Assembly (NCBI GenBank): GCA_027459505.1
Contig: DAIDIE010000041.1
Location: forward strand, 129,252-193,251
DNA: 64,000 nt
Reading direction: 5' to 3'
Source of the DNA: Acidobacteriota bacterium
Lineage (GTDB): Bacteria > Acidobacteriota > Terriglobia > Terriglobales > SCQP01
Shown here piece by piece: positions 43,214-50,204 of the stretch (position 1 is the first letter of the stretch; each line of letters starts with the position of its first letter). The position numbers and the translations under genes are program-made. Below the pieces are notes generated by a model. That model was not told the DNA's origin. It saw only the letters and a list, made by a program, of their open reading frames with translations, and did not search any database.

Positions 43214-44836
43214 TCAGGGCCGGCAATCCAGCGGGCGGTGAAAGGGGGCTAGCCATGCCGGGACGCCTTCCAAGAGGAAGGTGTGATGGCCCTCGAGGGC
43301 GGGAACGTGGCGCGGGAAATCTTCCCGGAAATGGCTGCCGCGGCTCTCTTCGCGGCGCAGGGCGCTGATCAGTATGGCGCGTGCTGTGGTTCTGGCGTGC
43401 GCCTGCTCGACGTCTGCGACAGGCAGGCTCGCACTCAAGTTGCTAAGCAGATCGGAAAGGTCAGCGGCGTTGCGCCGTATTCCCGCTTGCCGCCACATGC
43501 GCTGTCGGAGCGCTTCAAAATCCATCTGCGAACCGTACATCAGTCCGGTTCCCAAATGGGTGCCATTTACGGGTGTTGACGATTGTTTCTGAGCTGCCAT
43601 GGCGCGACCGGCGCGCGCACCAAACACCAGGCCCTCCAGAAGAGAGTTGCTGGCCAGGCGGTTCGCACCGTGTACGCCGGTACAGGCAGTCTCTCCGGCG
43701 GCAAAAAGATTCGGGACCGAACTGCGGCCGTCGGCATCGGTCCACACGCCTCCCATGGCATAGTGCGCCGCCGGCCGGATAGGAATGGGGGTTTTCGTTA
43801 AGTCCAGCCCCACTTCCCGCAGCGTGGAGACAATGCGCGGAAAACGTTTTTGCAGATAGCTGGCAGGAAGCGCAGTGGCGTCCAGAAAACAAGTGACAAA
43901 AGCGTCGGGTTGGAGACGCTGGGCAGAGCGAATCTCCTGATCAATGGCGCGCGCGACGACGTCCCGCGGGGCCAGTTCGGCGGCAGCGTGATATTCCGGC
44001 ATGAAGCGCTTCTTTTCCGGGTTCAGCAGTAACGCCCCTTCGCCGCGCAGCGCTTCAGAGATCAGAAAGCGAGGTGCACCTGCGAGCGCTAAAGCGGTGG
44101 GGTGAAACTGAACGAATTCCATGTCGGCCAGAAGCGCGCCGGCGTTAAAGGCCAGCGCTGGGCCGGCACCGGTGGCAACCTCGGGGTTGGTGCTATCGGA
44201 GAAGAGCTGGCCCAGTCCCCCGGTGGCCAGCAGGACGGAACTGGAACAGACATAGCGGAGCGTTTGCTCCGCACCGGAAAGGTCCAGGTATTGAACGCCG
44301 CAAACTGCGCGCTGGCCATCCTGGGCGCGCGTAAGGAGAGCTGTTACCTGCGCATGAGGCCGGATTTGTATATTTTTCTCCTGCCGGGTCCGGCGGGCCA
44401 GAGTGTGGGCAATTTCCCGGCCGGTGGAGTCGCCATGGGCGTGCAGAATGCGGGAGCGGCTGTGGGCGCCTTCGCGTGTGTATTGCAGTTCCTGATTGAT
44501 GCGATCAAAGGCTGCGCCCCATTCCAATAACTCGCCAATCAGAGCCGGGCCTTCCTCCACCAGAATACGGACAGCCGCAGCGTCGCACAGACCATCGCCG
44601 GCCGCCAGCGTGTCGCTCAGGTGCAATTCCACCGTGTCATCCTCGGCGAGCGCGGCGGCAATGCCGCCCTGGGCGAAATGAGTGGCGGAGTCGGTGATCT
44701 CTCCTTTGGTGAGAATCCAAACGGAACCAAAAGAAGAGAGTTCCAGTGCGGCGCGCAGACCGGCGATTCCAGAACCGATGATAATGAAGTCAGCGCGTTC
44801 GAACTGCGTGCCAGAAGGAATGGGCTCAAGAGCCAT
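43214..44836 (-). CDS. nadB: L-aspartate oxidase
   Basis: The 540-residue flavoprotein oxidises L-aspartate to iminoaspartate, the first step of NAD synthesis. It begins ADFIIIGSGIAGLRAALEL (FAD-binding), then ATHFAQGGIAAALAEDD, HGDSTGREIAHTL, FVQFHPTAL, RDVVARAIDQEI and HYAMGGVWTDADGRSSVPNLFAAGE. It heads the minus-strand operon with the exchanger and M28 peptidase. nadA and nadC are not seen. It is divergent from the selenoprotein candidate with 57 bp between. Confidence 0.96.
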   Translation of the reverse strand: MALEPIPSGTQFERADFIIIGSGIAGLRAALELSSFGSVWILTKGEITDSATHFAQGGIAAALAEDDTVELHLSDTLAAGDGLCDAAAVRILVEEGPALIGELLEWGAAFDRINQELQYTREGAHSRSRILHAHGDSTGREIAHTLARRTRQEKNIQIRPHAQVTALLTRAQDGQRAVCGVQYLDLSGAEQTLRYVCSSSVLLATGGLGQLFSDSTNPEVATGAGPALAFNAGALLADMEFVQFHPTALALAGAPRFLISEALRGEGALLLNPEKKRFMPEYHAAAELAPRDVVARAIDQEIRSAQRLQPDAFVTCFLDATALPASYLQKRFPRIVSTLREVGLDLTKTPIPIRPAAHYAMGGVWTDADGRSSVPNLFAAGETACTGVHGANRLASNSLLEGLVFGARAGRAMAAQKQSSTPVNGTHLGTGLMYGSQMDFEALRQRMWRQAGIRRNAADLSDLLSNLSASLPVADVEQAHARTTARAILISALRREESRGSHFREDFPRHVPALEGHHTFLLEGVPAWLAPFHRPLDCRP

Positions 44837-44893: not shown

Positions 44894-45448
44894 ATGGATA
44901 AGGAAGCTTTGACAACACGGCTGCCCCTGCTCGAACGGGAGCAGGTGCCGGAGGCCATCCGGGAACTGTTCGACTGGCTGGAGAGGCAACGCGGCACGGT
45001 GCCGTACATGTTTCGTACCCTGGCGCACGCTCCGGAACTGGCTCTAGGGGTTGCCGCCTTTCTCAAGCCATTGATGGGAGATGGAGCGTTGGCCGGCTGG
45101 TACAAGGAACTCATTGCTACCCGGGTCGCGGTGCTGAACCATTGCGATTATTGAATCAGCTCGCATACTGCTTTGGCAAAGCAGAAGGGCGCGACGAAAG
45201 CACAGCTTGAAGCGGTTTGGAATTTCGAGACGGAGGTCTTCTCGGAGCGGGAGCGCCGCGGTTTTCGATGCGCTGACCGGCTGCACGAGAGTGGTGAAAA
45301 GATCGATGAGGTCTTTTTTGCGGAATTGCGCCAGCACTTTGGTCCCGCGGAGATCGTGGAACTAATGGCGGTGGCGGGAGCCTTTGAGTTCTTTACCCGC
45401 TTTGTTGACGGCCTGCGCATTCCCGTTACGCCGCAGCCCTCACAATGA
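44894..45448 (+). CDS. Candidate selenoprotein: AhpD-like (carboxymuconolactone decarboxylase family) with CxxU
   Basis: A single frame runs from the ATG at 44894 (GGGAAG upstream) to TGA at 45446-45448, interrupted only by TGA at 45152-45154. Reading it as selenocysteine gives 184 residues with HCDYU-ISSHTALAKQKGAT: Cys84, Sec87 and His91 sit exactly on the CxxCxxxH redox motif of AhpD-type alkylhydroperoxidases. The sequence after the TGA (ATKAQLEAVW) continues the family without any frame change, and codon use stays normal. A hairpin of SECIS geometry follows the TGA. The family reduces peroxides through a thiol pair. The alternative is a nonsense mutation or base error (TGT/TGC to TGA), but that would not predict the hairpin. 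Confidence 0.87.
45152..45194 (+). promoter_or_regulatory. Putative bacterial SECIS element after in-frame TGA
   Basis: Directly downstream of the TGA, CTGCTTT (45168-45174) and AAAGCAG (45178-45184) form a perfect 7-bp stem with a three-base loop GGC. TCGC (45161-45164) and GCGA (45191-45194) add a lower stem. The apical loop begins 20 nt after the TGA and its first two bases are G. Known bacterial SECIS rules ask for a loop about 16-37 nt after UGA with a G in its first two positions, so this fits. Confidence 0.8.
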
Positions 45449-45454
45449 ATGCGC

Positions 45455-46279
45455 TCAGCGCAGGAACTGGGGCTCGGTTTCAGGAACCGCCATGGGCCGC
45501 AGGGAGTAGCGGCCGCGAAGGTGATTCCAACGGATGCTGGCGACCTCCAGGACCGAGCGGATGCCGTCGCTGAGCGCGTGGATCTTGGCGCCTTCCGCAT
45601 GCGCCCAAACCACCGGCACTTCCGCCACCTGCAACCGGCGCAGGCGAGCGATAAAGAGGAGCTCGGGGTCGAATCCCCAGCGCTCAATGCGCTGGTAAGG
45701 AAATACCTGCAGCGCCGCTTCCCGGCGGAACAGCTTGAAGCCGCATTGTGTGTCCTTGAAGGAGAGGCCGAGCAGCCCGGTCACCACGCGATTGAACATG
45801 CGGCCGCCCCATTCGCGGAAAGCGCTTTGGTGCGCCTGGATGAGTTCCGCTTTGGAGCGGCTGCCAATGGCGATATCGGCGCCGGCGGCAAGCGCGGCTT
45901 CCAGTTTTGTCAGTTCTTCGATCGGAGAAGACAAATCCGCGTCGGAGAATAGCAGCAACGTTCCTCGTGCCTGCAACATCCCGTGGCGAACGCTGTAGCC
46001 CTTGCCGCGATTGCCGGGATTATGGAGCAGATAAAGGCGGCTAGCGGGCGCCCGTTGCGCGAGCGGAAACGAACTGGCTACCATGCACGTTCTATCGCGC
46101 GAGCCGTCATCGACGACCAGGAGTTCGGCTTTCAGTTGCCGGGCGTTGAGGTAGGCCGCAATCTTCTCCAGGGTTTGCGGCAGGCGGCTTTCCTCGTTGT
46201 AGGCGGGGATCACGATGCTCAGCGAGGGGCGAAAGCCATCGCCTGGCAATTCGCGGCCAAAGGTCGGGTCGATGTTCAT
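45455..46279 (-). CDS. Family 2 glycosyltransferase, dolichyl/polyprenyl-phosphate sugar synthase-like
   Basis: The 274-residue protein begins LSIVIPAYNEESRLPQTLEKI, with LLVVDDGSRDRT, a DXD-like LFSDADLSSPIEEL, and DTQCGFKLFRREAALQVF, all signatures of GT2 enzymes like dolichyl-phosphate mannose or glucose synthase. They transfer a sugar from a nucleotide donor to polyprenyl phosphate at the inner membrane. There is no C-terminal TM pair. It is convergent with the AhpD-like gene (6 bp). Confidence 0.9.
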   Translation of the reverse strand: MNIDPTFGRELPGDGFRPSLSIVIPAYNEESRLPQTLEKIAAYLNARQLKAELLVVDDGSRDRTCMVASSFPLAQRAPASRLYLLHNPGNRGKGYSVRHGMLQARGTLLLFSDADLSSPIEELTKLEAALAAGADIAIGSRSKAELIQAHQSAFREWGGRMFNRVVTGLLGLSFKDTQCGFKLFRREAALQVFPYQRIERWGFDPELLFIARLRRLQVAEVPVVWAHAEGAKIHALSDGIRSVLEVASIRWNHLRGRYSLRPMAVPETEPQFLR

Positions 46280-48917: not shown

Positions 48918-50204
48918 TTACTTGGCGAGGGCCGGTTCCGGCTCAACTTCGGGTGTGGCGCCCTCGCGCACCAGTTCGGCTTCGAACTCGCGCATGCGGG
49001 GGGCGATGATGGGCGCTTCAGCCTGCGAGGCGATGATGGCGTCCAGTGTCTTCAGGCCATTGCCAGTGATTACCAGCACAATTGGCTGTTGCGGGTCAAT
49101 GCGGCCTTGCTGCAGGAGCTTGCGGGCGCAGGCCACCGTCACCCCACCAGCGGTTTCGGTGAAAATGCCTTCGGTTTCGGCCAGCAGGCGCATTCCTTCC
49201 AAAATCTCGTTGTCGGAAACGTCTTCCGCCCAGCCGCCAGTAGCGCGAATGGTGCGCGCGGCATAGAAGCCGTCGGCCGGATTGCCGATAGCCAACGAGC
49301 GCGCGATGGTTGATGGCCGTTGCGGCTCAATGTCTTTGCGGCCTTCCTTAACGGCGCTGCTGATCGGCGAGCAGCCGGTGGCCTGGGCGCCAAAGATGCG
49401 GGTATCTCCCGCCGCCCAGCCCAATTGCCGCAGGTCATCAAAAGCGCGGGCAATCTTGCCGATCAGCGAACCACCCGCCATCGGGCAGACCAGGGAGGAG
49501 GGGAGCTTCCAGTCGAGCTGCTGGGCGATTTCGTAGCCCACCGTTTTGGAGCCTTCCGCGTAATAGGGCCGCAAATTGACGTTAACAATGCCCCAGGGGT
49601 AGCGCTGCGCGATTTCAGAACAGAGGCGATTGACCTGATCGTAATTGCCGCTGATTTTGATGAGCTTGGCGCCATAAACGAGCGTGCCGGCGATTTTGGC
49701 CGCCTCCAGATCGGAGGGGGTAAAGATATAGGCCTCCAGGCCAAGCGCGGCGGCCTGCGCGGCCACCGAGTTGGCCAGATTGCCGGTCGAGGAGCAGGCC
49801 ACGACCTTGAAGCCGAATTCAATGGCTTTGCTGAGCGCCACCGCGACCACACGATCCTTGAACGAGAGGGTGGGGAAATTGACGGCGTCGTTTTTTACAT
49901 ACAGTTCACGCACCCCCAACTTGCGCGCCAGGCGCGCCACTGGAACCAGCGGGGTGCCGCCGACGCCCGCCAGGCTGGTGAGGCGGGGATTGTCGAGCGG
50001 AGTTGAGTTGAGAGGGAGGAACTCGCGGTAGCGCCACATGCTGGATGGGCGGCGCTCCAGCAACTCCGGCGTGATCGCCTTGCCGATGGCCTGCAGGTCA
50101 TAGTAGACCTCCAGAGGCGCAAAGCACTCGTCACAGCCAGCCAGCGGTTCGGATTTGAAGTGTTTCCCGCAATCGCGACAGCGCAGTCCCAGCTCGAAAT
50201 TCAT
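48918..50204 (-). CDS. Threonine synthase-like PLP enzyme, SAM-riboswitch controlled (candidate homocysteine synthase)
   Basis: The 428-residue protein has a zinc-ribbon-like N-terminus (Cys9, Cys12, Cys24, Cys27) and a fold-type II PLP domain: VNFPTLSFKDRV with Lys116, VVACSSTGNLANSVAAQAA, VCPMAGGSLIGKI and the C-terminal GGVTVACARKLL. The canonical thrC in this window reads GMNPTGSFKDTG at the lysine; this paralogue has AVNFPTLSFKDRV. The SAM-I riboswitch, terminator and MoaD-like partner argue for a role in sulfur amino-acid synthesis, perhaps O-phosphohomoserine to homocysteine; that is inference. By sequence it would be named threonine synthase. AGGATAGGAC precedes the ATG. Confidence 0.9.
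   Translation of the reverse strand: MNFELGLRCRDCGKHFKSEPLAGCDECFAPLEVYYDLQAIGKAITPELLERRPSSMWRYREFLPLNSTPLDNPRLTSLAGVGGTPLVPVARLARKLGVRELYVKNDAVNFPTLSFKDRVVAVALSKAIEFGFKVVACSSTGNLANSVAAQAAALGLEAYIFTPSDLEAAKIAGTLVYGAKLIKISGNYDQVNRLCSEIAQRYPWGIVNVNLRPYYAEGSKTVGYEIAQQLDWKLPSSLVCPMAGGSLIGKIARAFDDLRQLGWAAGDTRIFGAQATGCSPISSAVKEGRKDIEPQRPSTIARSLAIGNPADGFYAARTIRATGGWAEDVSDNEILEGMRLLAETEGIFTETAGGVTVACARKLLQQGRIDPQQPIVLVITGNGLKTLDAIIASQAEAPIIAPRMREFEAELVREGATPEVEPEPALAK

Follow-up and report, generated by a model that had tools for sequence, protein, structure and literature searches.

An AhpD/CMD-like gene with a probable selenocysteine codon and a conserved bacterial SECIS-like hairpin in an acidobacterium

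The AhpD-like gene and its in-frame TGA

The window, meaning the whole stretch of 64,000 nucleotides analysed here (G000:C19:129252-193251), comes from a 4.06-Mb assembly that is 97% complete, and it contains a gene of the AhpD/CMD superfamily with a single internal TGA (Table 1). Read codon by codon, the frame 44894-45448 has this TGA as codon 87, sense codons at all other positions and a terminal TGA at 45446-45448. The codon lies in the motif NHC84-D-Y-U87-ISS-H91, in which Cys84 and His91 are present and the TGA takes the place of the second Cys of CxxCxxxH. The PF02627 (CMD) profile spans residues 47-127, across the TGA, with 60.2 bits (2e-16; cut-off 23). Mechanical ORF calling returns two pieces, 44894-45154 (86 aa) and 45173-45448 (91 aa). 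The sequence-only reading had described this same arrangement: one frame with TGA87 as its sole interruption at the second Cys position, family similarity that is unbroken across it, and two truncated fragments as the product of automatic callers; our results agree on each of these points. It had also proposed an alignment of homologues at residue 87, which does have Cys or Sec there, with Cys in 27 and TGA in 44 of the 90 rows used for the tree described below. A consensus scan for a sigma-70-like promoter found none, which says little for this organism.

The gene stands alone between nadB and a glycosyltransferase gene, outside the operon in which its Sec and Ala relatives are found (see below). 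This operon was therefore dropped as a direct clue to the function of the window copy. Elsewhere in the window, a SAM riboswitch (RF00162, 50318-50433, minus strand, 80.5 bits) lies upstream of a threonine synthase ORF (48918-50204, minus strand).

Table 1. Features of the locus, and members of the S-x-Y-A clade of relatives
Feature	Position in window	Strand	Remarks
L-aspartate oxidase NadB	43214..44836	-	Divergent, left border, no functional part; TIGR00551 516.5 bits, over cut-off
Predicted AhpD/CMD-like selenoprotein gene	44894..45448	+	184 aa, putative Sec at residue 87
Active-site segment with the AhpD proton-relay residues E72, C84, Y86, U87, H91	45107..45166	+	Spacing as in PA0269
Putative Sec codon 87, in-frame TGA	45152..45154	+	Second residue of the CxxCxxxH active site
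Candidate bSECIS hairpin	45168..45184	+	7-bp stem, GGC loop, loop start 20 nt past the TGA
Family 2 glycosyltransferase	45455..46279	-	Convergent, right border, no functional part; PF00535 89.6 bits
S-x-Y-A clade members			L068, L072, L073, L075, L076, L084, L085, L087-L096, L040

A hairpin at a fixed distance from the TGA

Downstream of the TGA, the arms CTGCTTT (45168-45174) and AAAGCAG (45178-45184) enclose the loop GGC (45175-45177) and form a stem of exactly 7 bp. The bSECIS rule (PMC13188914) specifies a loop of 3-9 nt, a stem of 4-16 bp, a G in the first two loop positions, a spacing of 16-37 nt and an MFE of at most -7.5 kcal/mol. The element satisfies it on all counts, with a 3-nt loop (GGC), a 7-bp stem, a spacing of 20 nt and an MFE of -11.1 to -12.3 kcal/mol for regions of 44 to 57 nt, and so both its coordinates and the rule bear out the earlier claim of a perfect 7-bp hairpin with a GGC loop inside the bacterial SECIS window. 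Chance was gauged with 100,000 shuffles that kept the protein fixed and drew synonymous codons anew according to local usage. Stems of 7 bp or longer that obeyed the loop and spacing rules arose in 1.7% of them, and a stem at the exact observed place in 0.1%. The plain folding energy of the hairpin region is nothing unusual (z = -0.39), and the evidence from the hairpin therefore lies in its geometry and conservation rather than in its stability.

This conservation was assessed in 101 relatives, gathered by an order-wide search and from a species-genome collection, in which the codon for residue 87 is TGA in 49 and encodes Cys, Ala or Gly in 52. A stem of at least 7 bp fitting the bSECIS rule is present in 47/49 TGA genes versus 1/52 non-TGA genes, and a stem of at least 6 bp at the identical offset with a GGC loop is present in 48/49 TGA genes. 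Among 38 distinct elements, 97.7% of the stem cells are paired, and six of the seven stem pairs are altered on both sides with pairing kept. The covariation score is 0.607, as compared with 0.236 +/- 0.022 in shuffles (0/500 as high) and 0.09-0.24 in slid controls, and RNAalifold finds the same stem in the alignment. A covariance model run against the host genome gave only two strong places, namely its two TGA-bearing AhpD genes (E values of 4e-13 and 1e-11, against 0.2 for the place ranked third), and the training set had included the elements of both. One TGA relative without the standard stem (L051 of G063) has an alternative 5-bp hairpin, CTGCC-AGTT-GGCAG, with its loop 16 nt past the TGA.

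Selenocysteine machinery and other TGA genes of the host genome

Absence of the sel genes had been named in the sequence-only reading as evidence against a selenoprotein. We looked for them in the same genome, and all are present: selB (671-aa ORF, C18), selA (471 aa, 543 bits, C24), selD (351 bits, C24) and tRNA-Sec (79.7 bits, anticodon TCA, C44). In the SelB ORF (L021 1938-3953), the GTPase domain is followed by an unusual run of some 30 residues, SLQDGGFAQQERRHPALPGGLERSLARP. The frame is open throughout, and the run may have arisen by insertion in this lineage or through two frameshifts that compensate each other. Judged from its sequence, selD (L028, G000:C24:313736-314662) is itself a predicted selenoprotein gene, with a single in-frame TGA near its start (AAGUAGKMGP) and a hairpin, GGTCCAAC-GGT-GTTGGACC, that has an 8-bp stem and a loop starting 20 nt past the TGA. 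A second AhpD-like paralogue (L003/L023, G000:C44:38900-39418, minus strand) has one TGA at the CxxU site, followed by a 7-8-bp stem with a GGC loop 20 nt past the TGA, and the genome's two remaining CMD genes are uninterrupted. The hallmarks of a bacterial selenoprotein gene, namely a TGA aligned to Cys, a bSECIS and selA, selB, selC and selD, thus occur together in this genome.

Across 150 genomes of the order, tRNA-Sec was found in 20/23 genomes with the TGA form versus 37/127 without it (Fisher p 2e-7, which is only indicative since the genomes share ancestry and are not independent). Three TGA-bearing genomes, G003, G012 and G100, have no tRNA-Sec match at the strict threshold and so count against the Sec reading; two of them are incomplete (89% and 73%). 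G100 (~2.2 Mb) is listed as complete, and its TGA AhpD relative (L050) has a perfect hairpin.

Active site and the reading of UGA87

From these sequence features, we consider it almost certain that UGA87 encodes selenocysteine and that the gene specifies a functional AhpD/CMD-like selenoprotein. With the codon, the hairpin, its covariation and the machinery genes all observed, we infer that SelB with Sec-tRNA(Sec) would bind the GGC-loop hairpin just past UGA87, and that Sec would be put in at the second position of CxxU.

The AlphaFold model of the protein (mean pLDDT 91.7, pTM 0.86) matches the crystal structures of the AhpD-like proteins 2PRR, 2PFX, 6K40 and 2OYO with a TM of ~0.85. The AhpD-like protein PA0269 of Pseudomonas aeruginosa, whose peroxidase activity is weak and depends on cysteine, has a proton relay of Glu36, Cys48, Tyr50, Cys51 and His55 (PMC3141380). 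The spacing of E72, C84, Y86, Sec87 and H91 is identical, with Glu, Cys, Tyr/His, Cys (Sec) and His all found, and in the folded protein these residues would form an AhpD-type proton-relay site. Mycobacterium tuberculosis AhpD also shares the five-residue spacing and the CxxC-xxx-H site; unlike the window protein, however, it and PA0269 have Cys for Sec, a low overall identity and another chain length, and M. tuberculosis AhpD has a different topology. The identical spacing places Sec87 at the position of M. tuberculosis AhpD Cys133, which we take to be the residue that attacks the peroxide. By analogy with AhpD, the Sec selenol would be the likely attacker of a peroxide or other reducible substrate, Cys84 would resolve it as a selenenylsulphide, and this would be recycled by a thioredoxin- or lipoyl-type donor.

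A peroxidase-type catalytic role is fairly probable on this comparison, but peroxidase chemistry is not assured, because relatives with the AhpD fold include the debrominase Bmp8 (6OHI/6OHJ). A genuine selenoprotein with a different reductive chemistry, for example dehalogenation or the reduction of disulphides, is a less probable alternative that still deserves weight; it competes with the catalytic part of our explanation only and leaves Sec insertion unaffected. Besides Bmp8, it draws on Sec orthologues of other genomes, whose operon also encodes a TonB-type outer-membrane protein, a PLP aminotransferase and an amidohydrolase, a gene setting suggestive of the breakdown of one particular compound, whereas the retention of five of five AhpD proton-relay positions and the annotation of the closest structures as AhpD-like antioxidant proteins favour the peroxidase-type role.

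For the insertion of Sec itself, a pseudogene or sequencing error, that is, a nonsense mutation or a miscall of TGC or TGT in an ordinary Cys enzyme, is very improbable. A single base separates TGA from a Cys codon, and Cys forms (TGC/TGT) are common among the orthologues; these Cys forms, however, lack the hairpin, and TGA together with the hairpin recurs in five further orthologues, which come from four independent assemblies (L063/L034; L066 and L074; L069; L070), which makes a miscall in one assembly implausible. The frame is otherwise undisrupted, and the genome has the Sec machinery. Compared with four Sec, two Cys and one Ala orthologues, amino-acid identity is 63-69% before the TGA and 48-55% after it (65-69% and 52-55% for the Sec orthologues only); conservation is a little weaker downstream of the TGA than upstream of it, and third codon positions hold an excess of differences on both sides of the TGA in these seven comparisons. 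The kept identity and the third-position excess past the TGA are unlike those of a decayed gene. With conservation running on beyond this codon, and with Sec, Cys or Ala at the site in close homologues, decay or error is a very improbable explanation. Least credible of all is that UGA is a true stop, with an 86-aa truncated product and merely historical conservation downstream: mechanical ORF calling does end the frame there, but the 97 downstream codons hold the identity and third-position excess given above for the Sec orthologues, and truncation would remove the catalytic His91 and half of the fold.

Family placement and evolution

The predicted selenoprotein passes the cut-offs of the AhpD/CMD superfamily (PF02627 as above; TIGR00778, 51.5 versus 27.8 bits). 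For TIGR01926 (peroxidase-related enzyme) it scores 70.2 bits, below the cut-off of 81.8; its close orthologues score 65-78 bits, and the C44 paralogue passes with 101.4 bits. It is also no member of two related models that include Sec members, NF053654 (YciW-related (seleno)protein; 67.5 versus a cut-off of 310 bits) and NF041238 (alkylhydroperoxidase-related (seleno)protein; 50.5 versus 175 bits), and it reaches the cut-off of none of the NCBIfam selenoprotein models, including these two and NF041047.

That the family includes selenoproteins elsewhere, as the sequence-only reading held, has been in print since 2005, when 27 sequences of AhpD-like CxxU selenoproteins were described (PMC1088965). 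Larger numbers followed in 2008 (AhpD-like 1, 299 sequences; AhpD-like 2, 70 sequences; PMC2398784), and a review of 2026 lists AhpD-like selenoproteins in a table (PMC13188914). AhpD-like 1 corresponds to COG2128/TIGR01926 and AhpD-like 2 to PF02627, both from Sargasso Sea and GOS metagenomes (PMC1088965, PMC2398784, PMC13188914). A few selenoproteins had already been recorded in Acidobacteria, with 3 families and 4 proteins (PMC1794560). The window gene is like AhpD-like 1 and 2 in its family, in having CxxU at the same active-site position and in its bSECIS just downstream, but its subfamily is mainly from Acidobacteriota and it falls under the TIGR01926 cut-off; nearly all of its named relatives belong to Acidobacteriota (Terriglobia) and some to Chloroflexota, which points to an acidobacterium as the host. 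The C44 paralogue shares the CDYU motif and the GGC loop at 20 nt, but it is only 38% identical and, being over the TIGR01926 cut-off, belongs to the known subfamily. The kind of protein is already known, and what is added here is a subfamily that current naming models miss.

The tree of 90 rows was built without residue 87, as a quick tree with a midpoint root. The orthogroup of the window gene comprises 41 rows (support 100), with Sec in 6, Cys in 16, Ala in 18 and Gly in 1, and the Ala rows form one clade (support 98). Forcing a single Cys clade on the whole tree was rejected (p-AU 4e-103), and Sec and Cys were therefore exchanged more than once in the family. In nearly all members of the Ala clade, Ser replaces Cys84 (mostly S-x-Y-A; Table 1), so that both redox residues are lost. 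The Ala clade and several of the Sec members, the window copy not among them, have in common an operon in which the AhpD-like gene is accompanied by genes for a TonB-type outer-membrane protein and a class I/II aminotransferase and by an amidohydrolase-like gene. One possible history, which we put forward tentatively, is that Sec was ancestral in the orthogroup and that, besides changes from Sec to Cys, one lineage lost both residues, with Ser taking the place of Cys84 and Ala that of Sec87, and kept the same operon. The order, Sec before the other states, depends on the midpoint root and the quick tree and is not secured. Bases resembling a SECIS in the Ala clade encode the conserved peptide LSARQKGA, and they are for this reason not independent evidence of a relic SECIS.

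Since the naming models miss this subfamily, its genes probably appear in annotations as truncated fragments. More of them could be sought with the fixed geometry, a GG[C/U] loop 20 nt past the UGA that is common to the AhpD-like genes and to selD of this genome and that serves as a sharp SECIS rule at the local level. If the proposed history is true, a selenoenzyme would have turned into a non-redox protein in place. The Sec/Cys/Ala orthogroup offers a natural experiment on what Sec buys in an AhpD-type site.
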